From the NCBI RefSeq assembly GCF_014203045.1, contig NZ_JACHIF010000014.1:1-64000 (forward strand): DNA of 64,000 nt, written 5' to 3'. How positions within the stretch are numbered: the first letter of the stretch is position 1; each line of letters begins with the position of its first letter. Source of the DNA: Prosthecobacter dejongeii (GTDB lineage Bacteria; Verrucomicrobiota; Verrucomicrobiia; Verrucomicrobiales; Verrucomicrobiaceae). The notes under the pieces are model-generated. The model saw only the letters and a list, made by a program, of their open reading frames with translations. It had not been told where the DNA came from and made no database searches. Shown here one piece after another: positions 15,925-43,429 of this stretch. A program made the translations under genes and the position numbers.

Positions 15925-16064
15925 GGGAATTTGCAGATTAAAGGCTGCTAGGGGAGAGTCAAGGGGCAGGGGAGTTCCCATGTCCTCATTCAACATCACG
16001 GCAACGGGCCTTTCATTTGGACACTGCTACGTTATGTTTAAGTCAGTCATTCGTCTTTACCCTC

Positions 16065-16967
16065 ATGCCTTCACTGCACGCGCCTGATGTCCTTTGCGAG
16101 GCTTTCTTCCAGTTCATGGAAGTAGAGAGGAGGTCCTCTCCCCGCACTTTGGAAAACTACGCACACGCCCTAAAGACGTTTCGGGAAAAGCAGAAAAAAT
16201 TTACGAGTTGGGAGGCACTCACGGCGGATGACTTTCGCCGCTATTTATTTGATCAAATGAAGCGTGAGATGAGCCGAGCCACCATTCGCCTGCATTTCTC
16301 CGCGCTGCGTTCTTTCTTCAAGTGGCTGACTCGCCGCCAGGGCTGGAAGACGAATCCTTTGCTGGATGTGCAGCTGCCCAAGCAAGAAAAAAAGCTGCCT
16401 GTGGTACTCACCGTGACGCAGGTCACTGAGATGCTGGATCTGCCGATGAAAACAGAGAAAGAGCGCACCGCCCCAGCCTGGGCTCAGGAGCGAGATGCGG
16501 CCATCCTCGAGCTCTTTTACAGCACCGGCATGCGTCTCAGTGAATTGGCTGGATTGAATGTCGAGGATGTGGACTCCTACAGCGATACGGTGCGCGTTTT
16601 TGGCAAAGGCAGTAAGGAACGGCTTTTACCCATCGGCACACCTGCGATGGAGGCGATTCAACGATACCGAGTGAAGGCTGGTGTGCACAGCGGGCCGCTT
16701 TTTCTCAGCAAGCTTCGCAAGCGGATCACCAACCAAGCTATCGGCGATGTGGTGGAGAAGTACTGGAAGAAGTCCGGGCTGCCAGTGCACATCACACCGC
16801 ATAAACTGCGCCATAGCTTTGCCACGCATTTGCTGAACAATGGTGCCGACCTACGCAGTGTGCAGGAACTCTTGGGCCACGCCAGCCTCAGTACCACGCA
16901 GATCTATACCCATGTCTCCACTCAGCGAATGAAGGAGGTCTATGATGCCTCGCATCCGCGGGCCTGA
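16065..16967 (+). CDS. Tyrosine recombinase of the XerC/XerD family
   Basis: A 300-residue site-specific recombinase. The N-terminal SAM-like core-binding domain ([18 protein letters not shown]) precedes a catalytic domain with every active-site residue: Arg in [12 protein letters not shown], Lys in [24 protein letters not shown] (His and Arg), the [16 protein letters not shown] His, and the Tyr nucleophile in that same segment. Length and lack of neighbouring mobile genes fit the housekeeping enzyme that resolves chromosome dimers at dif. XerC and XerD cannot be told apart by eye. No dif-like site was recognised next to it. Confidence 0.88.
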
Positions 16968-34154: not shown

Positions 34155-34595
34155 ATGCCGATCACCAACATCATTTCAGATAGCCTGGACCGATCATTCA
34201 GTCTCTACCGTGATCTTATTGACTCTGTTGATGAAGCCGCACTGAGTTCGAAACTACCATCGTTGCCCTCAAATACTTTGGGGCTCCAGCTCTGGTGTGT
34301 GGTGGGCGCAAGAGAGAGCTACACCAGGGCGATCATGGCCAATCAATGGGCCGGTTTTACCTGCTCGCTGGAAACGGCCACCCTCATAATTCCAGTAGCC
34401 GAGGCTCTCAGTCGTTCCGCCCAGGCAGTTTCAGACGTCCTGAAATCCATCGAGACTTATACCGATGTCCAGAACCGCTTGATCATCGATCTGTTGGAGC
34501 ACGAAGCCGCTCATCACGGCCAACTCATCCGTTATCTCTACGCCCTAAAGCTGAGCATCCCATCCAGTTGGAAATCCAGATACTCTTTGGCATAA
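34155..34595 (+). CDS. DinB-like four-helix-bundle protein
   Basis: A 146-residue protein. The C-terminal helix carries LEHEAAHHGQLIRYLYALK, the metal-binding helix of the DinB/YfiT family (E-A-x-H-H-G-Q-x-x-x-Y), and the first His would be in the LQLWCVVGARESY helix, where the usual His is missing. Members bind divalent metal and often act as thiol-S-transferases or nucleases of unproven role. It is the last gene before the tRNA-Val-associated islet. Confidence 0.75.
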   Translation: MPITNIISDSLDRSFSLYRDLIDSVDEAALSSKLPSLPSNTLGLQLWCVVGARESYTRAIMANQWAGFTCSLETATLIIPVAEALSRSAQAVSDVLKSIETYTDVQNRLIIDLLEHEAAHHGQLIRYLYALKLSIPSSWKSRYSLA

Positions 34596-34692: not shown

Positions 34693-34718
34693 AATGGTGC
34701 GCGGTGCAGGCTTCGAAC
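34693..34718 (-). repeat. Displaced tRNA-Val 3' end (att-like direct repeat, distal copy)
   Basis: The sequence from 34693 reads AATGGTGCGCGGTGCAGG, then C, then TTCGAAC. It equals 36290-36315 at the tRNA except for one base (C for G at 34711). It includes the complement of the CCA end, the acceptor strand and the T-loop. The rest of the tRNA is missing: the sequence beyond (34719 on) cannot complete the T-stem, so it is not a second tRNA gene. Confidence 0.75.
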
Positions 34719-34930
34719 TGGAAGCCTTCCCTTATCCCATAAAGCCGGGAACGCTTTACCCGGTCAAAATACGTGCCCTTGTGCAGAATGACGCATTTGG
34801 CGAGGTCGTCGCGGCGTGGCCCTCATTCGTAGCCATCAAGGCACCCAATCCTAGCCCTTCGAAATCATGGCAAGGAATACACCCTCCAGGGCCGTGCTGC
34901 GCTTGGATACAAAACGTGGGCACCCAAAGC

Positions 34931-34977
34931 GGGGCAGCTACCGACAGGCGGAACGGGTGTGCCCGACCGCCTGCCCC
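34931..34977. repeat. Long GC-rich hairpin inside the islet
   Basis: Three nested paired blocks form one extended stem: GGGGC (34931) with GCCCC (34973), AGGCGG (34946) with CCGCCT (34967), and CGGG (34954) with CCCG (34962) around a TGTG loop. There is a one-sided bulge of 10 bases on the left arm and an AA/A internal loop. It sits in non-coding sequence left of the antitoxin. No T-run follows, so it is not a simple terminator. It may be a recombination or transfer structure of the ancestral element. Confidence 0.45.
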
Positions 34978-35193
34978 GGTGGCGGCACGCCAGATGCGGC
35001 GGGCTTGTCTAAAACGCATATTAGAGCAGGAGGGGCATACCAGAAGCAGCGCCCTCCCGTTTCGACGCCGTATGATTTGCATGGGGCGTTTTCGTCCCGC
35101 CTGCTAGCTAGACCCTCAGCCCCCTCCTCCTGAGCTCTTTGAATCCACAAATCTGAACTGGCACTTCTTTTCGTTCTATCCTATATTCTTAGT

Positions 35194-35403
35194 ATGTCAC
35201 ATGTCGCAGAGTTGATCAAAGAGGCGGCCAAGCTTGATATGCTGGATCGTGCTGAGTTAGTGTCTTCGCTCCTTGAAGACCTAGATCCCTGCCCTCGCCA
35301 CGTGAGCGATGAGGAGGCCTTGCAACGCTTTCACGATTTGAAATCTGGCAATGTCAAAGGGCTCTCTGAGGCCGATTTTTGGAAAGCCTGTGGGCGGAAA
35401 TAG
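35194..35403 (+). CDS. Antitoxin, addiction-module component of the TIGR02574 type
   Basis: A 69-residue acidic protein with the family's N-terminal pattern (ELIKEAAKLDMLDRAELVSSLLEDL) and a Trp near the C-terminus (ADFWKACGRK). Proteins of this type are encoded directly before RelE/ParE toxins and neutralise them. The toxin ATG comes 3 bp after this stop, so translation is coupled and the antitoxin probably autoregulates the pair. The promoter is likely in the AT-rich bases 35150-35190. Confidence 0.85.
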   Translation: MSHVAELIKEAAKLDMLDRAELVSSLLEDLDPCPRHVSDEEALQRFHDLKSGNVKGLSEADFWKACGRK

Positions 35404-35406
35404 CTG

Positions 35407-35697
35407 ATGGAGATTATTCGCCATCCAAAGCTTGCCGAGGATATCCGCGATGCGGCCCTACACTACGCAGAAATCTCGGAAAGGGTGCTTGCTGCTTATT
35501 GGAGTGAGCTAGATTCGGTTCTGGCCTCAGTGAAAAGAAATCCGCGCAGCCATCACTATGATTCATGTGGTTTGCGCAGAGCCAGTCTCCGCAAATTTCC
35601 TTATCACTTGCTGTATGAGGTTGATGATGATGCCATTTATTTGGTCGTTCTCAGACACGATAAAAGGCACCCCGATTATGGGGTAGATCGTCGCTAG
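35407..35697 (+). CDS. RelE/ParE-family toxin
   Basis: A 96-residue toxin with the ParE/RelE alpha-alpha-beta layout. The N-terminal strand IIRHPKLAEDIRDAALHYAE leads into a long helix (AAYWSELDSVLASVKRNP), then the C-terminal sheet RRASLRKFPYHLLYEVDDDAIYLVVLRHDKRHPDYG with the typical 'FPY-x-hhYE' and basic end. This form acts either on gyrase (ParE) or on ribosome-bound mRNA (RelE); the target cannot be decided by eye. It is 3 bp after its antitoxin within the tRNA-Val islet. Confidence 0.85.
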   Translation: MEIIRHPKLAEDIRDAALHYAEISERVLAAYWSELDSVLASVKRNPRSHHYDSCGLRRASLRKFPYHLLYEVDDDAIYLVVLRHDKRHPDYGVDRR

Positions 35698-35801
35698 GCC
35701 TAACTTATCTTTGTGGGATAAATCGGTGCTTGCGCCTTAGTTTTTTGAATGGAGTTGCTCTTGAGCTCTGGCTACCAGACTCCCAGCTAGAGTCTCTAAT
35801 A

Positions 35802-35897
35802 ATGAATTTTTTGAAAGCCCAAAAAATGCGAGGGCGCTGGGTCGTAAAGCGCGAAGATTTCATCCGCTTTTTAAATCAGCTTCCACTGAATTTTTGA
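35802..35897 (+). pseudogene. Excisionase-like (HTH_17) fragment
   Basis: A 31-codon frame ending MRGRWVVKREDFIRFLNQLP. The G-R-W-x-V-x-R-x-x-F-x-x-F-L pattern is the C-terminal wing of MerR-like/excisionase helix-turn-helix domains. The N-terminal helix-turn-helix (about 25 residues) is missing, and sequence before the ATG does not supply it. It lies immediately before the integrase-like relic, matching a xis-int order. Weak but position-supported. Confidence 0.35.
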
Positions 35898-35900
35898 GCC

Positions 35901-36212
35901 ATGCTATTTTCAAATCATAGCCCAAAGGAGAGCGCTATTTTCGCTTTTATTATTTCGACGATCCCAAGGATCTTGTGAATGACTCGACCAGGCGCACAAC
36001 GAAAGAGGCTGCAACTAGGTATGCCAAACTACTTTTTGAAAAAAGCCCCGCTTGAGCGCGATGGCCTGGGGTCTTCCCAAGCTGAACGTGACGCCAGCAA
36101 GAAAGACCTGCGGCTTCACCTGAATAATTTTCTGGATTCGCGGGAGAGAGGGGAATACCCGAACATCAATCTGTTCCAGGGCGCCAAAACGTATCGAGAA
36201 GTGTCTAGGTGA
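35901..36212 (+). pseudogene. Frame-shifted integrase-like relic
   Basis: Three frames must be joined to read it: a short ATG frame at 35901, then 35921-36055 (PKGERYFRFYYFDDPKDLVN, then DSTRRTTKEAATRYAKLLFE), then the frame open to 36212 (SKKDLRLHLNNFLDSRERG). The middle part looks like the N-terminal arm-binding region of tyrosine integrases (Y-F-R-F strand, S-T-R-R-T-T-K-E-A-A helix). The catalytic domain is lost. The last frame (35979-36212, 77 codons) is often called a gene on its own but is better read as part of this relic. It ends 80 bp from the tRNA, where an integrase gene is expected. Confidence 0.4.
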
Positions 36213-36291
36213 ATAGTGGTATGGATTCGGTTTAATCCGTTGAAAATGAACCATTTGACAAGAAATGTCGCGACGTGGCGAACTGTTCAAA

Positions 36292-36366
36292 TGGTGCGCG
36301 GTGCAGGGTTCGAACCTGCGACCCCTGCCGTGTGAAGGCAGTGCTCTACCGCTGAGCTAACCGCGC
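36292..36366 (-). tRNA. tRNA-Val (anticodon CAC)
   Basis: Read on the minus strand: a 7-bp acceptor stem (GCGCGGT / ACCGCGC), a D-arm with AGCTCAGCGGTAGAGC, an anticodon stem CTGCC/GGCAG with loop TTCACAC (anticodon CAC, reading GUG), and a T-arm GCAGGTTCGAACCCTGC. CCA is encoded (36292-36294 on the plus strand as TGG). The gene is intact; the first bases of its 3' end are duplicated at 34693. An 8-bp inverted repeat (36251-36258 / 36287-36294) lies just beyond the CCA. Confidence 0.93.
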
Positions 36367-36473
36367 GGTGTGTGGGATGGCTAGTTAAGCGCTGGATCTG
36401 ACCTTTGCCAGTTCTTTTTTACAATAAATGAAGGTTTTAAAGGAGTCGGCCACAGATCCGTTTATGTTTGATC

Positions 36474-38120
36474 ATGTTCCAGATGCCCAACTCTCTGCGG
36501 ATTCTCTCCTTCATCGCGCTCACCACTTCGATAGCTCACTCCCAGGCGACTCCAACAGAGCCTGAAAAAGCGGTGCTGCCGCCTCAAGAAAAGAAGGCGA
36601 ATGAAGGGCAGGGTGGAAAATTTATGAAGGAGGACAAGGGGAATAAAGAAGCAGCGGCTGACAAAACTGAAGGGGCGAAAGATGAAAAGTCTAAGGAAGA
36701 CACATCAGCGGACAAATCCGAGAAAAAGACTCAGACGGAGCATAGCCTGACTCTCAATGGCCAAAAGATCGATTTCACCGCGACGGCTGGCCTACTGAGC
36801 CTGAAAGATGGTGAAGGTAAGGTCACGGCAGATATCTTTTACATCGCCTACACCAAAAAAGGTGTGGCCGATCCTGCAAACCGTCCGCTCACGTTTTCCT
36901 TCAATGGCGGTCCGGGGTCATCCTCGGTGTGGATGCATCTAGGACTACTGGGACCCAAGCGCGTGAAACTACGTGACGATGGTTTTGCCGTGCCTCCTCC
37001 TTATCAACTGGTAGAAAATGAGTTCTCTCTTCTGGATGAAACGGATCTTGTGTTCATAGATCCGGTAGGCACGGGATATAGCCGCGCGAGTAAGCCTGAG
37101 GAGGCCAAGAACTTCTTTGGTGTGAATGAGGATGCTCGTAGCATCGGCGAATTCATCCGACTGTACATCACCAAGAATACTCGCTGGCCCTCGCCTAAAT
37201 TCCTGATTGGTGAAAGCTACGGCACCACGCGTGCGGCGGCTCTCAGCGGAGAGTTGCTACGCACGCATCGGATGAATCTCAATGGCATCATGCTCGTCTC
37301 TACCGTGCTCAACTTTCAGACCATCTGGGGTTCCGAAGGCAATGACCTGCCATTTGTTCTCTACCTGCCAAGCTTCACGGCCACAGCTTGGTATCATCAA
37401 AAACTGCCTGCTGATTTGCAGAAGAAACCGCTGGCTGAAGTTTTACAGGAATCCGAGAAATTTACCAGTGGAGACTACAATGAGGCTCTTCTTCTTGGGG
37501 CATCTTTACCTGCTCAGCAGCGTGCAGCCGTGGTGAAGCAGATGGCACGTTTCACGGGTTTGTCAGAAACGTTTGTCGCCGCCTCAGATCTACGTGTTTC
37601 ACTGAGTCGTTTTAATGCCGAATTACTGCGAGATCAGCGTCTGGTAACGGGCCGTTTCGATAGCCGTTACACTAGCTACATGCGTGACCGCCTGGGTAAT
37701 GAGGCTGAGCGTGATCCTAGTGCAGACGCTGTCTTCAGTGCCTTTGCTTCCACCTTCAATCATTACGTGCGCCATGACCTCAAGTTTGAAGATGATCGCC
37801 CTTACAACATTCTTGGCGGAGTGGGCAAGTGGAACTGGGATGCCGAGAACCAGTTTGCCAATGTCTCTGAAATCCTCGCTGAAAGCATGACGGCAAATCC
37901 TTTTTTGAAAGTGCACGTCTCCAATGGATTTTACGACATGGCGACGCCTTATTATGCAGCTCGCTACACCTTCTCTCACTTGAACATTCACCCAGAGTTG
38001 ATGAAAAACATCACCCAGGATGATTACACGGCCGGACACATGATGTACCTCAATCTGCCTGACCTGAAAAAACAAAAGGAAGATCTCGCTAAGTTCATCC
38101 GCGCGGCTTCCCAAAAGTAG
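36474..38120 (+). CDS. Exported serine carboxypeptidase (peptidase S10)
   Basis: A secreted peptidase S10 enzyme, 548 aa from ATG 36474. The signal peptide (NSLRILSFIALTTSIAHSQA) is followed by a Lys/Glu/Asp-rich low-complexity stretch (residues ~35-95) and the catalytic domain. Motifs: NGGPGSSSVW (substrate carboxylate-binding), IGESYGTTRAA with the Ser nucleophile, NGFYDMATPYYAA with the acidic residue, and AGHMMYL with the His. Bacterial S10 enzymes remove C-terminal residues from peptides. It stands alone, 107 bp from tRNA-Val. Confidence 0.9.
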   Translation: MFQMPNSLRILSFIALTTSIAHSQATPTEPEKAVLPPQEKKANEGQGGKFMKEDKGNKEAAADKTEGAKDEKSKEDTSADKSEKKTQTEHSLTLNGQKIDFTATAGLLSLKDGEGKVTADIFYIAYTKKGVADPANRPLTFSFNGGPGSSSVWMHLGLLGPKRVKLRDDGFAVPPPYQLVENEFSLLDETDLVFIDPVGTGYSRASKPEEAKNFFGVNEDARSIGEFIRLYITKNTRWPSPKFLIGESYGTTRAAALSGELLRTHRMNLNGIMLVSTVLNFQTIWGSEGNDLPFVLYLPSFTATAWYHQKLPADLQKKPLAEVLQESEKFTSGDYNEALLLGASLPAQQRAAVVKQMARFTGLSETFVAASDLRVSLSRFNAELLRDQRLVTGRFDSRYTSYMRDRLGNEAERDPSADAVFSAFASTFNHYVRHDLKFEDDRPYNILGGVGKWNWDAENQFANVSEILAESMTANPFLKVHVSNGFYDMATPYYAARYTFSHLNIHPELMKNITQDDYTAGHMMYLNLPDLKKQKEDLAKFIRAASQK

Positions 38121-38354
38121 GGTGGAAAATATACTGTAGGCAGACGCTAAAGCTCGACCTCATTTCGAGCATTCCTATCCCATGCCAAGGAACAGGGCTT
38201 GCCGAAACCCTGCTCTTTGGGAAAAAGATGAAGGCGATCAAGACGAGGCCAACACCGCTTTTTGGGTACGCCATGAGTTTCGCCTATCCAATGGATCCAA
38301 CATTCGACCAGGCAGGCAGAATGGCATCACGCTGCGGCAAAGCTTTTTCTGCTT

Positions 38355-38888
38355 TTAGCTTTCAGGATATACAGCCACGGCCATGACACCTTCACTAGGC
38401 AACCATCCCACCACTTCTACGCGGCGGGGGGTCTTGGAGGTTTTGCTGCCCATGCCTTGACTGACAGTGTCCAAAAGTTGCTTCTGTGTATCGGCATTCA
38501 CGTCACCACCGAAGAAATTAGCCAAGTTGGTCAAAATGGGAGCAGGCGCCTCCATGCCGACAATGGTAACCGGCGTGCGATTTTGTCCGCTCGCCAAGAT
38601 TTGTTCGCGCATCATTTCTGGCGACAAGCCGCCTGGCATCAGGATAAGCTTTCGCAGACGTGCGACGGTGGGCGCATGGATCTGTGGCTGGGCCATTGCA
38701 GCATTGGCGCTGGCGGCTGCTACCGGGGGCTTGATGGACTTTGTTGGTTTTAGAAAGCGTGTCTCAGAAGATACCTCCTGGACTGAATATTCAGGGCCTC
38801 CTTCAGGCAGTGGCAGCAGGCTGTCCTGTGCGTAAACACTGGCGCAGAGAAGGCTGAGGAGACTGGAAAAACGAACCAAGGAAATCAC
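38355..38888 (-). CDS. Exported hypothetical protein
   Basis: A 177-residue protein with a signal peptide from GTG 38888 (ISLVRFSSLLSLLCASVYAQ). The mature part contains an Ala-rich linker, a strand-helix region PTVARLRKLILMPGGLSPEM and a C-terminal RRVEVVGWLPSEGVMAVAVYPE. No family is recognised. The intergenic regions on either side (38121-38354 and 38889-39091) show no further gene. Confidence 0.5.
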   Translation of the reverse strand: MISLVRFSSLLSLLCASVYAQDSLLPLPEGGPEYSVQEVSSETRFLKPTKSIKPPVAAASANAAMAQPQIHAPTVARLRKLILMPGGLSPEMMREQILASGQNRTPVTIVGMEAPAPILTNLANFFGGDVNADTQKQLLDTVSQGMGSKTSKTPRRVEVVGWLPSEGVMAVAVYPES

Positions 38889-39091
38889 GAGGGCGTGGTT
38901 TTATCAGCCCGCTTGTTTTTAAACAACAATTTTTTGACCCAGTGACAAAAAAACAATCGTTTTTAAAATGTTAATTGGCCCTCGGGAAAAGTTACCCCGG
39001 GCAACTTGGATGAGCAATGAGAACTCAAAGGTTGCCTGTGCGAACTAGCCAAACGCCCCCCTTGAATCATCCAGGGGGGGCAAATAAAACC

Positions 39092-39871
39092 TTAGATGGT
39101 CATGGAACTGTAGCCGCCATCCACCACCATTTCCTGGCCGGTGATGAAACTGCCTGCTCCGTTGGCGGCCAGGAGCAGGGCTGCACCTACGAGTTCATTG
39201 GCGGAGCCAAAGCGGTTCATTGGGGTGTGGCCCATGATTTTGGCTACGCGATCTGGTGTCAGAACTTTTTTGTTCTGCTCGGCAGGGAAAAAGCCCGGTA
39301 CCAGCGTATTGACGCGGATATTCAGTGGTGCCCATTCACGAGCAAGGTTCTTACTGAGGTTATGAACGGCCCCTTTGGACATGCTGTAGGTAAAGACTCG
39401 ACTCAGCGGGAGCAGGCCAGACATAGAGCCCAGATTGATGATGGAGGCAGGCACTTTCTGTTCGACAAAGTATTTCCCGAACACTTGACAGGCTAGGAAC
39501 ACGCCTTTGGTATTGATGCCCATGATGCGGTCATACTCTTCTTCCGGGATATCCAAAAAAGGAGTGGCGGAGTTTACCCCAGCACCGTTCACGAGGATGT
39601 GGCAGCCACCGGAGCGCTCCAACACCTGATCGAGCAGCAGTTGTAGATCTGCTTTGCGGGAAGCATCCGCACTGACAAAGTAGCCTTCGCCACCAGCCGC
39701 GTGGATGGCCTCCAGACGCTTTTCTGCCTTGGCGGGATCACGCCCGACTAACACGACTTCTGCACCTGCACTGGCGTAACCTTCGGCAATGGCACCGCAC
39801 AATTCACCGGTACCTCCGATGATGACGGCGGTTTGATTCTGGAGGGAGAAAAGTTCAAAGATGGAAGACAT
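39092..39871 (-). CDS. SDR-family oxidoreductase, fructuronate-reductase-like
   Basis: A short-chain dehydrogenase of 259 aa. It shows the NAD(P) loop [13 protein letters not shown], an NGAGV element, and the catalytic array SMSGLL...[11 protein letters not shown] (Ser, Tyr, Lys), and the C-terminal [14 protein letters not shown]. The GGTGxLC form of the loop is typical of the SDR fructuronate/mannonate reductases (UxuB-like) of sugar-acid catabolism, which would complement the glucuronate isomerase at 60970. That enzyme is 21 kb away, so substrate is inferred. ATG 39871 is preferred over 39892. Confidence 0.75.
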
Positions 39872-39985
39872 GATGGGGAAGGGGAGAGGCACAGTGACTC
39901 AACGTGAGTAAGAGCAAGACTTTTGCCCATGTCGAATACAGAACGTTCGTCAAGGCCAGAAGTCACATTGCAGACTGCCTAAAAG

Positions 39986-40000
39986 TGGCACGCTGCGTGC
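39986..40000 (+). promoter_or_regulatory. Sigma-54 (RpoN) -24/-12 promoter candidate for the amt operon
   Basis: TGGCACGCTGCGTGC has the full TGGCACG block and exact GG-N10-GC spacing to the -12 GC; TTGC is GTGC. The transcript would begin near 40011-40012. This places the GTG at 40014 at the very 5' end, so the first gene may be leaderless or really begin at ATG 40089. It has the same architecture as the site at 320-334 before the other amt. Confidence 0.55.
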
Positions 40001-40013
40001 TTATTCTTGGGGA

Positions 40014-40376
40014 GTGGAAGCCACCAGAATCATTCCCATCACAGCCAGCCGCCCCGTACAAGGTCAACAACCTGCCAATGTCATTCGCATGGAACCTGAT
40101 CCTGGTTTGATCAAAATGGATACTCAGCAGGGACGCGAATCGTTGTCCGGGGGAGATGCCGAATCTTCTCAGCGTTTCGCCAGCGAGGTCAAGTACGTCA
40201 CTTATTATGCTCAAAAGCTAGCCGATACCCTGGGCATGCATCAGCTCCAGCTTGGCATCATTGAGGATCGAGAAGGCCAGACGGCTTTCCAAAATTCCAC
40301 CAACGGATGGCATGGTGTGGTTAGTAGCAATCGTCGTTCCTTGAAACAAGTGCGTGAATCTCTGACCCGAGGCTGA
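40014..40376 (+). CDS. Small conserved hypothetical, first gene of the amt operon
   Basis: A 120-residue soluble protein with no assigned family. It starts with GTG at 40014 (reading from VEATRIIPIT); ATG 40089 is a possible start because the sigma-54 promoter ends only 13 bp before the GTG. The N-terminal 45 residues look unstructured; the rest is helical (EVKYVTYYAQKLADTLGM). It precedes the Roadblock-like gene by 16 bp, so the two are cotranscribed and likely form part of one complex, but its function is unknown. Confidence 0.55.
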   Translation: MEATRIIPITASRPVQGQQPANVIRMEPDPGLIKMDTQQGRESLSGGDAESSQRFASEVKYVTYYAQKLADTLGMHQLQLGIIEDREGQTAFQNSTNGWHGVVSSNRRSLKQVRESLTRG

Positions 40377-40392
40377 AAAGGCACATCCCAGC

Positions 40393-41085
40393 ATGAATTT
40401 AAATTCACTCATCGGGGCCGTTGCAGCCCTGCAGCGACTGGAAGGTGTGGCAGGTGTCATGCTTTTCAAAGGACGGAACACGGTGCATAAACAAATGCCT
40501 TTCTCTGAAGGACGCGCGCTGGATCTCATGGATGTGCTCGGGCAGATGCTGGAGGGATACCGACAGGTGCGGAGGAAGATGCGTCAGGTCTATCTTGAGT
40601 TCGATGGGGGCACCCTTTTGGTTCTCATTCAGGATGAAACGATCTTGGTGTTTCTCCTCACCGCGAGGGCGGATGCAGACCTCGCTGCCAGCGCCGCTAG
40701 CGTCTTGCTGAATGACCATGCGCTCGTGCTGACTCAGTTGTCCACTGAAGCGGCCGATTCTGTTTCGCGAGCCCACGATGGAATTGAAGAGCTTGTGGTT
40801 AGCAGCCCTCGTCGTCTTCAAGAAATCACGGACAAGGCCGAAGTCGTCGTCAACAACTGGGGGCAGGTTCGGAAGCAAGTCGAAAGCATCCTGGGAAAGG
40901 TCATGGGACGTGCCCAACTTTCGATGATGATTGACCGAGTCATGGCGAAACGAGGGGTGCAAGACCCCTATCGTTTGCCGCCGGCCGAGGTTCGAAAACT
41001 TGCAGAAGCCTTGATCGAACAGGTGCCTAACACCACCAAACGTCAGGCCCTGCTGAGTGAGCTAGAAACTCTTTTAGCCGAATAA
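40393..41085 (+). CDS. Roadblock/LC7-like domain protein
   Basis: A 230-residue protein whose N-terminal ~110 residues follow the Roadblock/LC7 pattern (helix LIGAVAALQRLEGVAGVMLF, strands around YLEFDGGTLLVLIQDETILVFLL), as in MglB-type proteins. The C-terminal ~120 residues are helical, with a basic/acidic coiled-coil-like end (LSELETLLAE). MglB-type proteins regulate small Ras-like GTPases, but no MglA-like GTPase is in the window. It sits between the small operon gene and amt (37 bp before amt). This context suggests a signalling input into ammonium uptake or nitrogen control. Confidence 0.6.
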   Translation: MNLNSLIGAVAALQRLEGVAGVMLFKGRNTVHKQMPFSEGRALDLMDVLGQMLEGYRQVRRKMRQVYLEFDGGTLLVLIQDETILVFLLTARADADLAASAASVLLNDHALVLTQLSTEAADSVSRAHDGIEELVVSSPRRLQEITDKAEVVVNNWGQVRKQVESILGKVMGRAQLSMMIDRVMAKRGVQDPYRLPPAEVRKLAEALIEQVPNTTKRQALLSELETLLAE

Positions 41086-41121
41086 ATTCATCCTCCCTTC
41101 ACGCTTTTACTTTCGTCATTC

Positions 41122-42696
41122 ATGATCCGTTATCTCCGTTCTTTTTTCTTCCTGATCGTCATCTCAATGGCTCACTCCGCAGATGGCCAAGATGCGTCTG
41201 TAGCCCCGCCAGCTATTGAGCAAAAGCTGGATGGGATCATGGAAAAACTAGACGCCAATGAGCGCGTCAATGCACGCCTGGACAGCATTCTGAAAAAGCT
41301 AGATGCGAATGATCAGGTGGTTAATCGCCTGGATGGTCTTTTGGAAAAACTGAGCCAGAGTGACAAAGCTACAGCCCCTCAAGCCACTTCCCCAGCAGCC
41401 ACGCCAGCCAACCTTGCCAATCCAGTCACTGAGGGGAATGCAGTCCCTGTAGGTGCCCTTGAATCCCTCCAGTCTAACATCAATTATGTCTGGATCGTCA
41501 TCACTGCCGCCATGGTGTTTTTCATGCAGGCAGGCTTTGTGATGTTGGAGATTGGAGCCTGTCGGGCTAAAAACACCATCAACATTGTGATGAAAAGTTT
41601 CCTAGACTTTTGCATCTGCGCCATTGTTTTTCTTTTGGTTGGGTTTGGCCTCATGTTTGGCACCAGTTGGAGAGGGCTTGTTGGCATGGACGGGTTTTGG
41701 CTCTCCACGTTTGGAGCTGACCATCCCATCTGGGTTTTTTGGTTCTTCCAGTTAGGCTTTGCTGGAGTTTCCTGTACCATCCTTTCCGGAGCTGTGGCCG
41801 AAAGAACAAAGTTCATGGGCTACCTGCTCTATTGCGCCCTCTTTACCATCTTTATCTATCCAGTGGTGGGGCACTGGGTATGGGGAAGTTTTGCCGGCAC
41901 CTTTGGCATCGGCGGGGAGAAGGGTTGGCTGGAGGCACTTGGTTTTGTCGATTACGCAGGCTCTTCAGTGGTCCATGCCTGCGGAGGTGCATGTTCTTTA
42001 GCTGGGATTCTAGCCGTTGGGCCTCGCGTCGGGCGTTTTGGCAAAGATGGCACCCCACGTCTCATTGCTGGACATAATATACCGCTTGTTGCCTTGGGCG
42101 TTCTCTTGCTGTGGTTTGGCTGGTTTGGATTCAATGCAGGATCATCCTTAAGCGGTAGTGGGGTCATTGGTCGTTTGGTGGTGAATACCACCATCTCCCC
42201 GGCTGCCGCAGGTTTGGCTGCCATGGTCGCCATGTGGTTCATCCAGGGACGTGCAGATGTGAATATCGCCATGAATGGGGCATTGGGTGGTGCTGTGGCT
42301 ATCACGGCCTGCTGCGGCAATGTGACTCCCGCTGCGGCCATCCTCATTGGTCTATTCGGCGGCATCACCACCACCGTCGCCACCATCGCGCTGGAGCGTC
42401 TGCGCATAGACGATGCCGTCGGGGCCGTACCAGTGCATCTGGCCTGTGGTTGGTGGGGCACCCTGTGTGTCGCCCTCTTTGATGAAAAAGGTTTTAGCAT
42501 CGAGCGCCTCGGGATCCAGGCTCTAGGGACCTTCAGCATCAGTCTCTATGCCTTCATCTCCTGCTCCATCATCTTTGCTTTGATCAAACTAGTCGCTCCC
42601 ACTCGCGCAACGGAGGAGGAGCAAATCAATGGCTTGGATTTCTCAGAGCATGCGGCCAATGCCTACCCCGATTTCCAAACAACGGAACAAGCTTAA
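41122..42696 (+). CDS. amt: Ammonium transporter with periplasmic repeat domain
   Basis: A 524-aa Amt protein with a signal peptide, then three tandem 17-residue repeats (residues 36-52, 53-69 and 70-86: LDGIMEKLDANERVNAR and close variants) forming a predicted coiled coil, then a linker and the Amt core. Core features include GACRAKNTINIVMKSF, SSVVHACGGACSLAG (His of the twin-His pore) and GAVPVHLACGWWGTL (second pore His). The eleven-helix transporter conducts NH4+/NH3. No PII (glnK) gene is adjacent; the operon partners are the two upstream genes. Confidence 0.92.
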   Translation: MIRYLRSFFFLIVISMAHSADGQDASVAPPAIEQKLDGIMEKLDANERVNARLDSILKKLDANDQVVNRLDGLLEKLSQSDKATAPQATSPAATPANLANPVTEGNAVPVGALESLQSNINYVWIVITAAMVFFMQAGFVMLEIGACRAKNTINIVMKSFLDFCICAIVFLLVGFGLMFGTSWRGLVGMDGFWLSTFGADHPIWVFWFFQLGFAGVSCTILSGAVAERTKFMGYLLYCALFTIFIYPVVGHWVWGSFAGTFGIGGEKGWLEALGFVDYAGSSVVHACGGACSLAGILAVGPRVGRFGKDGTPRLIAGHNIPLVALGVLLLWFGWFGFNAGSSLSGSGVIGRLVVNTTISPAAAGLAAMVAMWFIQGRADVNIAMNGALGGAVAITACCGNVTPAAAILIGLFGGITTTVATIALERLRIDDAVGAVPVHLACGWWGTLCVALFDEKGFSIERLGIQALGTFSISLYAFISCSIIFALIKLVAPTRATEEEQINGLDFSEHAANAYPDFQTTEQA

Positions 42697-42754
42697 GCTC
42701 ATGCCGCAAACTCTTCGGGCCTGAGCATTTCGGGTGGGATAAACTTAAGCGCAA

Positions 42755-42775
42755 GACTTCAAAAGACGTGAAGTC
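42755..42775 (+). repeat. Small hairpin after amt
   Basis: GACTTCA-AAAGACG-TGAAGTC: a perfect 7-bp stem with a 7-nt loop, 59 bp after the amt stop. Lies close before the stronger stem-loop at 42789-42818. No T-run follows, so it may be a weak terminator or a processing signal. Confidence 0.35.
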
Positions 42776-42788
42776 CGTCTTCATCCGC

Positions 42789-42818
42789 CCTTGATATGAG
42801 GAATGACTCATATCAAGG
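42789..42818 (+). terminator. Perfect 12-bp stem-loop downstream of amt
   Basis: CCTTGATATGAG-GAATGA-CTCATATCAAGG is a perfect 12-bp stem with a 6-nt loop, 93 bp after the amt stop. It is the clearest candidate 3' end of the amt operon transcript, although no T-run follows. The remaining intergenic sequence to 43120 (about 300 bp) holds no gene I can support, only the AT-rich promoter region of the next gene. Confidence 0.5.
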
Positions 42819-43082
42819 CTAGTAGGCAACTGCAATTGCCCATCTTTTTGATAATAAGGAAGCTTCCTGGCCCTTGGCTTAATTCAAAGAGCCACGGCTT
42901 GAAACTGGATGAATGAGCTTCATACCGCTGAATCTCCACTCGCTAAAATATCCACGCACCGCAGCCAAACATCTCCCGTTTCTACCCAAAGCAACAATCT
43001 TGTCACGATCTTGTGAATTACCATCTCTGATTATGACAGCTATTGGTCCGTTTGAGATGCTTTCGTGGTGATTTGCCTAGAT

Positions 43083-43097
43083 TGGCACGAATCTTGG
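43083..43097 (+). promoter_or_regulatory. Weak sigma-54-like site upstream of the small Cys-pair protein
   Basis: TGGCACGAATCTTGG has the full TGGCACG block and TTG at the -12 position, but the critical -12 C is G. It ends 23 bp before the ATG at 43121, giving a predicted start near 43109. Only the resemblance is claimed. Confidence 0.25.
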
Positions 43098-43120
43098 TGT
43101 TTCATTAAGCTCCCCCCCCT

Positions 43121-43429
43121 ATGACAGACACAGATCTTTCAACAAAGTACACCCGCGTCGTGAAAACCAGCCTGGGCCAGTGGGTTCAGGCCATGGTGGT
43201 CAAAGAACCTCTGGCCATCACCCCGCAGATTCATTGGAAAGGCGTCGGCCGTATGCTTCCCGTGCGTGCCCTGCCGGAGAATGTTGAGCAAGCGCGTCGT
43301 GCGGCTCTCAAAGACCGCCGTTTTTTCCGTCACTGCGAACGCTGCAATGAAGTCCGTCCTGTTTCGCTCATCCTTGAAGCTGGCGTTTGCATGGACTGCA
43401 TTCACAAGATGCAAGCCGTCGCGGCCTAA
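43121..43429 (+). CDS. Small protein with two CxxC pairs
   Basis: A 102-residue protein whose C-terminal third is a treble/ribbon-like zinc site: CERCNEVRPVSLILEAGVCMDC (Cys at about 74, 77, 92 and 95), followed by IHKMQAVAA. The N-terminal part is beta-rich and basic. It is single and monocistronic, between amt and pyc (opposite strand). No family or function is assigned. Confidence 0.55.
   Translation: MTDTDLSTKYTRVVKTSLGQWVQAMVVKEPLAITPQIHWKGVGRMLPVRALPENVEQARRAALKDRRFFRHCERCNEVRPVSLILEAGVCMDCIHKMQAVAA

Follow-up and report, generated by a model that had tools for sequence, protein, structure and literature searches.

At positions 34693-36366 of the window (the whole 64,000-nucleotide stretch of Prosthecobacter dejongeii DNA analysed here), an intact tRNA-Val(CAC) gene and a displaced fragment of its 3′ end lie in direct orientation and bound a degraded element, as in islands of tRNA-targeting tyrosine integrases. 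A repeat search over the 64-kb window returned a 26-nt direct repeat (34693-34718 and 36290-36315, one mismatch, spacing 1597). The 25-nt core has exactly two matches in 64 kb at up to three mismatches and none in 100 shuffles, which rules out a chance repeat. The tRNA gene was called by ARAGORN at 36292-36366 on the minus strand, so that its 3′ end faces left. An earlier note on this DNA had described a 26-bp repeat of the tRNA-Val 3′ end, 1.6 kb apart with one mismatch, and an intact right-hand tRNA with its 3′ end to the left, and both descriptions hold. The features are as follows, where G033, G012 and G013 are genomes of the same genus with full elements and "circle" is the element with its two ends joined.

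34155..34595, plus strand: left flank gene, 146 aa, DinB-like by its earlier name (85% amino acid identity in G033)
34693..34718, plus strand: left att core, a displaced copy of the tRNA-Val 3′ end (placed as in G033, G012 and G013 relative to tail and rep)
34719..34861, plus strand: broken copy of the detached integrase tail, the end of int in the circle (tail HMM, E 3.3e-10)
34862..35047, plus strand: 5′ fragment of rep (rolling-circle initiator), frame broken (rep HMM; 94% identity to G033 over 189 columns)
35046..35143, plus strand: counterpart of the DNA that immediately follows the PD-T7-4-like gene in the element of G033 (alignment, 87% identity)
35194..35403, plus strand: open ORF of 69 aa, antitoxin-like (Unstab_antitox at 20.6 bits, under its cut-off of 23.3)
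35407..35697, plus strand: ParE-type toxin ORF, 96 aa, open (PF05016 ParE_toxin, 24.6 bits, cut-off 23)
35775..35897, plus strand: 3′ part of xis, HTH_17 excisionase-like (xis HMM positions 34-61, E 6.8e-9)
35903..36170, plus strand: N-terminal part of int, frameshifted (int HMM 8-49, E 4.4e-15, and 45-85, E 2.1e-13, in two frames)
36171..36290, plus strand: C-terminal stretch of int (int HMM 389-425, E 7.4e-17; about 0.85 kb of int missing before it)
36290..36315, plus strand: right att core, which extends into the intact tRNA gene at its 3′ end (repeat search, shuffles)
36292..36366, minus strand: tRNA-Val(CAC), intact integration target (ARAGORN; Rfam tRNA, 70.6 bits)
36468..38120, plus strand: right flank gene, S10 serine carboxypeptidase (PF00450, E 1.3e-19)

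Pieces of the window remnant

From left to right, the pieces run in the order tail, rep start, a 98-bp stretch, toxin-antitoxin (TA) pair, xis end, int start, int end and tRNA. The broken integrase tail and the rep start, both right of the left core, were absent from the earlier note. The window tail shares 92% identity with that of G033 over 111 columns, with small gaps and one 37-column gap, and the rep HMM matches 34833-35130 in two frames (E 2.8e-13 and 1.5e-10). A structured RNA in this conserved left end was considered and rejected, as Rfam returned only the tRNA plus sub-threshold matches; the end is conserved because it is coding sequence (int tail and rep). The 98-bp stretch at 35046..35143 shows that, compared with G033, about 1.8 kb is deleted here. 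Further right, the DNA identity to G033, G012 and G013 is 65-69% in the xis piece and 68-71% in the N-terminal int piece, and the HMM matches listed above bear out the xis- and int-like fragments of the earlier note. The int match at 389-425 overlaps the tRNA, and in element-free loci antisense tRNA-Val(CAC) alone scores at about 402-426, so that only the portion before that counts as int. For the same reason, a signal of about 402-426 at tRNA-Val genes was rejected as an int remnant, because the tRNA itself encodes those residues. The integrase gene is not intact in the window; its pieces are frameshifted and deleted, and the window copy is therefore a remnant. With none of its rep, tail, xis and int intact, it should be unable to move on its own.

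The TA pair, which stands in the cargo position, is the one cargo still intact in the window. Its two ORFs are open and adjacent, and the toxin exceeds its Pfam cut-off; the antitoxin scores below its own, and the pair named in the earlier note is a candidate ParE/ParD-like type II module. DNA similar to the TA pair is found elsewhere in G064, G036 and G034. The "DinB" label of the left neighbour could not be upheld, with no Pfam family at E≤1.

Three further observations were made in the window and its own genome. A 16-nt inverted repeat of 88% (35047-35062 and 35824-35839) brackets the TA pair, with its left arm beginning at the rep breakpoint and its right arm within the xis piece; it may be due to chance. 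The frame at 15942-16964 is possibly a chromosomal Xer-type recombinase; the integrase HMM matches it weakly (E 9.7e-5, positions 111-338). A second rep fragment, the C-terminal half, is found at L100:8153-8770 (G000:C4, the window's own genome; E 3.4e-32), another decayed element, with no tRNA within the 18 kb around it.

Elements and tRNA sites in related genomes

We searched for the region in 56 genomes, the window's own included. Longer elements with the same ends, which the earlier note had suggested looking for, were found in three genomes of the genus (4.0-6.4 kb). All are full elements at tRNA-Val(CAC), with lengths of 4015 bp in G033, 4328 bp in G012 and 6427 bp in G013, and they share an anatomy of rolling-circle Rep, variable cargo, Xis and tyrosine integrase (Int). 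The G033 element encodes Rep (411 aa), a DUF4145 protein, Xis (61 aa) and Int (426 aa), and the DUF4145 protein matches the PADLOC defence model PD-T7-4 (E 1.2e-78). In G012 a Sel1-repeat protein stands between Rep and Xis, and in G013 a PIN-domain protein preceded by a small ORF, followed by further ORFs. Other elements carry, as cargo, genes of type I restriction (G004) or for a PtuA-like ATPase (G041). Six of the 10 proteins scanned with PADLOC had no match, the TA pair of the window among these. The integrase-borne element with a TA pair proposed by the earlier note thus needs amending: the intact form is Rep-cargo-Xis-Int, and it is the cargo slot that the TA pair fills.

Rep matches PF23343 in G033 and G012 (E 3.7e-13 and 1.9e-11) and was assigned by alignment in G013. 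HYH at 176-178, Y230 and Y234 are invariant in these three Reps, and we take the HYH and the downstream Tyr to be the motifs of a rolling-circle (HUH) initiator. Pfam PF00589 was found in Int of G033 and G012. An alignment of 15 Ints shows R, K, H-x-x-R and Y without variation and one more H with almost none; these residues, presumably the catalytic set of a tyrosine recombinase, all lie before the junction. Relatives of Rep were found in 12 of 288 genomes of the order, and relatives of Int at E≤1e-20 in 7 of 48 genomes of the genus, with fragments and the window's own genome counted in both cases.

The core pattern, with one mismatch allowed, is present in 45 of the 48 genus genomes. Two same-strand cores within 15 kb on one contig were found in five genomes, at Val-CAC in G000 (the window's own genome), G033, G012 and G013 and at Val-GAC in G004. 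Extra core copies on other contigs are found in G002, G003, G030 and G001; in G002, a left core with tail and an int end at tRNA-Val lie on separate contigs. In G001, G027 and G020, the genes that flank the occupied site of G012 and G013 surround a tRNA-Val with a single core, that is, an empty orthologous site. The left flank of G001, with an ORF starting MNT(I/L)EEIFKNYE, matches G013 to near the core, apart from about 150 extra bases in G001, and at this site the int HMM detects only the tRNA-coded residues plus four before them. In the left flanks of G027 and G020, the DNA from the gene to the core does not align. Integration at the tRNA 3′ end, as put forward in the earlier note, is supported by the full elements at the same tRNA and by these empty sites for the G012/G013 context. 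Comparison of the genome sequences establishes the anatomy of the elements, their ends and the empty sites.

The earlier note had also suggested an empty tRNA flanked directly by the DinB-like and S10 genes, and no such genome was found. The DinB-like gene occurs in 5 of the 48 genus genomes (G000 counted) and lies beside this site only in G000 and G033. The S10 gene adjoins tRNA-Val(CAC) in G033, G018, G056 and G064; the tRNA is unoccupied in G018 and G064, but with other left flanks, and rep fragments lie near it in G056. The genes right of S10 in the window (38340-43246) are found inverted on the left side of the G033 site (L107:1-5089), so the site has undergone rearrangement. Elsewhere in the genus, int HMM matches reach well beyond the tRNA-coded part in G024 (389-425) and G001:C92 (377-415) and exceed it only slightly in G056 (394-426) and G020 (397-426). 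The first of these is a C-terminal int remnant at tRNA-Val(CAC) (L041:4775-4966, G024:C13), and the second, an int C-terminus with core (L049:4982-5161), is an orphan element end with no tRNA within the 10 kb around it.

The split integrase

In the integrated elements, int reads antisense into the tRNA gene, and its last 56-69 codons are found at the opposite end of the element. The int stop of G033, G012 and G013 lies inside the tRNA gene, and joining the right end to the left end lengthens the 426-aa Int to 471-473 aa by tails that are alike. With a first tail HMM, this module was also found in diverged elements, either ahead of rep or close to a tRNA-end sequence. With a wider profile, the tail was found at 28 places in 26 of 288 order genomes (E≤0.01), of which 25 were examined (those left out are in G002, G098 and G188). 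Thirteen of the 25 places have the tail, int and a repeat of 23-54 bp between the upstream side of the tail and the tRNA end. The other 12 are without the full arrangement, partly owing to contig ends: L096 has int and tRNA on a contig that begins within the tail, L195 and L202 have a 23-24 bp repeat with the tRNA and no int match, L197 has a 12-bp repeat only, L196 has int and no tRNA in the stretch, L201 (G196) has the tail attached to an int frame, and six have neither int nor tRNA, several of them at contig ends. Among sampled genomes of the phylum, 20 of 387 have tail matches at E≤1e-4; they overlap the genomes of the order search, and among the new ones L211 was inspected. There (L211:259-1719, G545), a single frame encodes the tail fused to a Rep-like protein.

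The targets of the 13 elements are of seven kinds: Val-CAC (3), Val-GAC, Arg-TCT, Asn-GTT (4), Ser-GCT (2), Ser-CGA and Ser-GGA. Counting L096 and L202 adds Ser-TGA, which makes eight tRNA kinds in all. The elements range from 2.4 to 12.8 kb and their integrated Ints from 421 to 474 aa, with the int stop inside the tRNA gene in 11 of 13, 3 bp past it in G167 and 44 bp past it in G120:C35. When the ends were joined as a circle in silico, Int continued in frame into the tail in all 12 readable joins (471-518 aa; tail of 56-69 residues), the 13th (G148) being masked at the junction. The frame played no part in choosing the 13, and at one in three each the probability of 12 in-frame joins by chance is about 2e-6, less extreme if related elements are counted once. 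The Int frame of these relatives, as joined in silico, crosses the core and ends differently in the circle and in the chromosome; the broken window copy is not among them. In 8 of the 12 joins, a Rep frame opens close to the joined stop, at −4 nt in four, −8 nt in one and +12 nt in three. No Rep start was found near the joined stop in the other four (G142, G146, G004 and G032), and in G142 and G004 a Rep-like ORF below the Pfam cut-off lies further on. Rep_1 is above its cut-off in G145, G041 and G120:C35 and below it in G167; G120:C33 was matched by the rep HMM.

A natural join is found in G196, where catalytic domain, core and tail lie in one frame; the N-terminal part of this int was not recognised, and no tRNA was found within 18 kb. 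At the left end of G012 (L035:5559-5849), the tail continues the frame of a short sequence that matches int weakly (E 1.1e-5, positions 392-419). This G012 join resembles a frozen attP junction, as if an earlier element had stood there in tandem.

The left-end tail could instead be a separate small protein, perhaps started inside the core, with int a simple tRNA-overlapping integrase. Two loci, L185 and L188, do have a start codon, within the core or close to it, that opens an ORF of 76 or 90 aa in the tail frame, and the fusion to a Rep-like protein at L211 points in the same direction. Against this, int stays in frame at every one of the 12 readable joins, with cores from seven kinds of tRNA genes, and there are the natural join in G196 and the weaker one in G012; we consider a separate protein quite unlikely. 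A trans-acting tail peptide may still act in the integrated state.

To assess the constraint on the tail, dN/dS was calculated from Nei-Gojobori counts. It is about 0.3 for the tail among G033, G012 and G013 (dS 0.82 and dN 0.25 for G033-G012; dS 0.80 and dN 0.25 for G033-G013; dS 0.10 and dN 0.031 for G012-G013, the last from few codons with 4 synonymous and 4 non-synonymous changes). For G033-G012 it is about 0.12 in int and about 0.15 in rep. Three other tail pairs gave 0.15, 0.36 and about 1 (G146-G055). At the sequence level, both the in-frame joins and the conservation of the tail are established. An AlphaFold model of the G196 protein (mean pLDDT 71.5, pTM 0.56) has the catalytic part followed by residues 171-248, mostly below 50, and two helices in the tail (265-272 and 279-292), with pLDDT of about 83-85 in most of it. 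The tail is thus predicted to be two helices on a flexible tether.

Origin of the window copy and the proposed switch

Compared with G033, the window is unevenly conserved: identity is 92-94% at the left end but 87% over the 98-bp stretch and 65-71% in xis/int, and each of the flanking genes has 79%. The left end therefore resembles G033 more than the chromosome does, and the right end resembles it less. The xis/int part shares 65-73% identity with all three relatives (G033, G012 and G013). The G+C content also varies, from 0.60 at the left end to 0.50 in the TA pair and 0.46 in xis/int, in a 64-kb window of 0.535. These results suggest, with moderate confidence, that the window copy was put together from two or more insertions or arose by an exchange.

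A single element from a common ancestor with G033 could have decayed in place, with the low xis/int identity due to neutral drift. G033 has the same site with the same genes on both sides, and the remaining pieces keep the order seen in G033. One decay history should not, however, give both a left end at 92-94% and xis/int at 65-71% between flanking genes at 79%, and a G+C of 0.60 at one end and 0.46 at the other is unexpected from it as well. Uneven decay could also yield a mosaic, though rep and int of one element should decay alike, and we regard a single origin as unlikely. As for the repeat being a chance or gene-conversion copy of the tRNA end near a TA pair, with no integration scar, it is only 26 bp long with one mismatch; this reading has a negligible probability given the shuffles, the rep, xis, int and tail pieces ordered as in intact elements, the empty sites in relatives and the intact relatives at the same tRNA. 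The decayed integrative element of the earlier note stands in outline, by the full elements and empty sites, but it looks composite and not like one element that simply decayed.

The locus is most likely a decayed, and probably composite, remnant of small Rep-cargo-Xis-Int elements that integrate at tRNA 3′ ends and, in intact members, have the core within int and a tail that would be restored in the circle. In the circle, int would end in the conserved tail and rep would begin at the int stop or shortly beyond it, so that xis, int, tail and rep would form one run from which the long Int and Rep would be made. Recombination between the core and a tRNA 3′ end would keep the tRNA whole and swap the tail for residues read antisense from the tRNA gene, trimming Int, and would strand the tail and rep at the other end with only chromosomal DNA upstream. 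The short Int, together with Xis, may later excise the element. We infer that the circle would occur in cells with the long Int as the integrating form, that the short Int would be restrained or, with Xis, biased to excision, and that integration would silence rep.

Mx8 is a Myxococcus phage of about 50 kb. Its attP lies inside the tyrosine integrase gene (IntP), integration exchanges 112 C-terminal residues for 13, and the swapped enzyme is described as less active or of changed specificity, not inactivated (PMC4701971, PMC6070905). The elements described here likewise have the attachment core within int and a C-terminus that integration would change. Unlike the phage, they are elements of 2.4-12.8 kb with an HUH-type Rep, a cargo slot, eight kinds of tRNA 3′ ends as targets and a tail of 56-69 residues. 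The archaeal virus SNJ2 gains a working replication operon when it excises and circularises, which brings the integrase operon and rep together (PMC13107129), and circularisation would similarly restore the int-rep run here. SNJ2 differs in being archaeal, in a Rep related to Rep_trans and not HUH, and in an integrase gene not described there as split. Mx8 remodelling changes an integrase and SNJ2 circularisation restores a rep operon, so the proposed switch has precedents. The combination in Verrucomicrobiales elements is a variant of a known principle, attP within int being known from Mx8 and restoration of a rep operon from SNJ2. Integration also splits the gene of the SSV-type "suicidal" archaeal integrases, where separation of the catalytic part is described as inactivating (PMC8371274); here the domain, in Int of G033 and G012, is PF00589 instead of Phage_integr_3, and the catalytic domain remains whole, with its conserved residues before the junction. 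Actinomycete integrative elements (pSAM2/AICE) are mostly found at tRNA 3′ ends (PMC4701971). No FtsK/SpoIIIE transfer gene, a criterion for AICEs, was found among the G033 and G012 element genes scanned, and, unlike pSAM2/AICE, RepSA was matched only below threshold in one element (17.9 bits, cut-off 34).

A phage origin was rejected, with no match to Rep in 50,697 phage records, and a pattern-based scan of IMG/VR with Rep gave 27 stretches that matched the pattern, none confirmed as a relative. The same type of scan in named genomes gave only two loci, which correspond to G012 and G013. Against plasmids, Rep has partial matches of 28-43% to eight actinobacterial plasmids, none covering 80% of the query, and the G033 Int matches 18 records, none over 80% of the query. 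The tailed Int of G196 matches 133 phage records, again none over 80% of the query. Searches of open-access papers on integrative elements, rolling-circle replication or tyrosine recombinases in Verrucomicrobia and on attP within integrase genes listed no title or abstract opening that describes such elements.

It is about evenly balanced whether, across the phylum, bacterial integrative rolling-circle elements use the attachment site as a state switch, in which the circle alone would encode the full Int and a coupled rep, and integration would trim Int and disconnect rep, with defence or TA genes as exchangeable cargo. Self-disrupting recombinases are called exclusively archaeal in an archaeal recombinase review (PMC8371274). 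Mx8 is a bacterial exception to integrase self-disruption, and here 13 element copies are found in one bacterial order. As a compact system, these elements would allow directionality control, replication control and the regulation of a tyrosine recombinase through its C-terminus to be studied together. The exact ends of small elements, some of which carry defence genes, may also be mapped by a simple signature, an integrase tail lying detached next to a repeat of a tRNA end.
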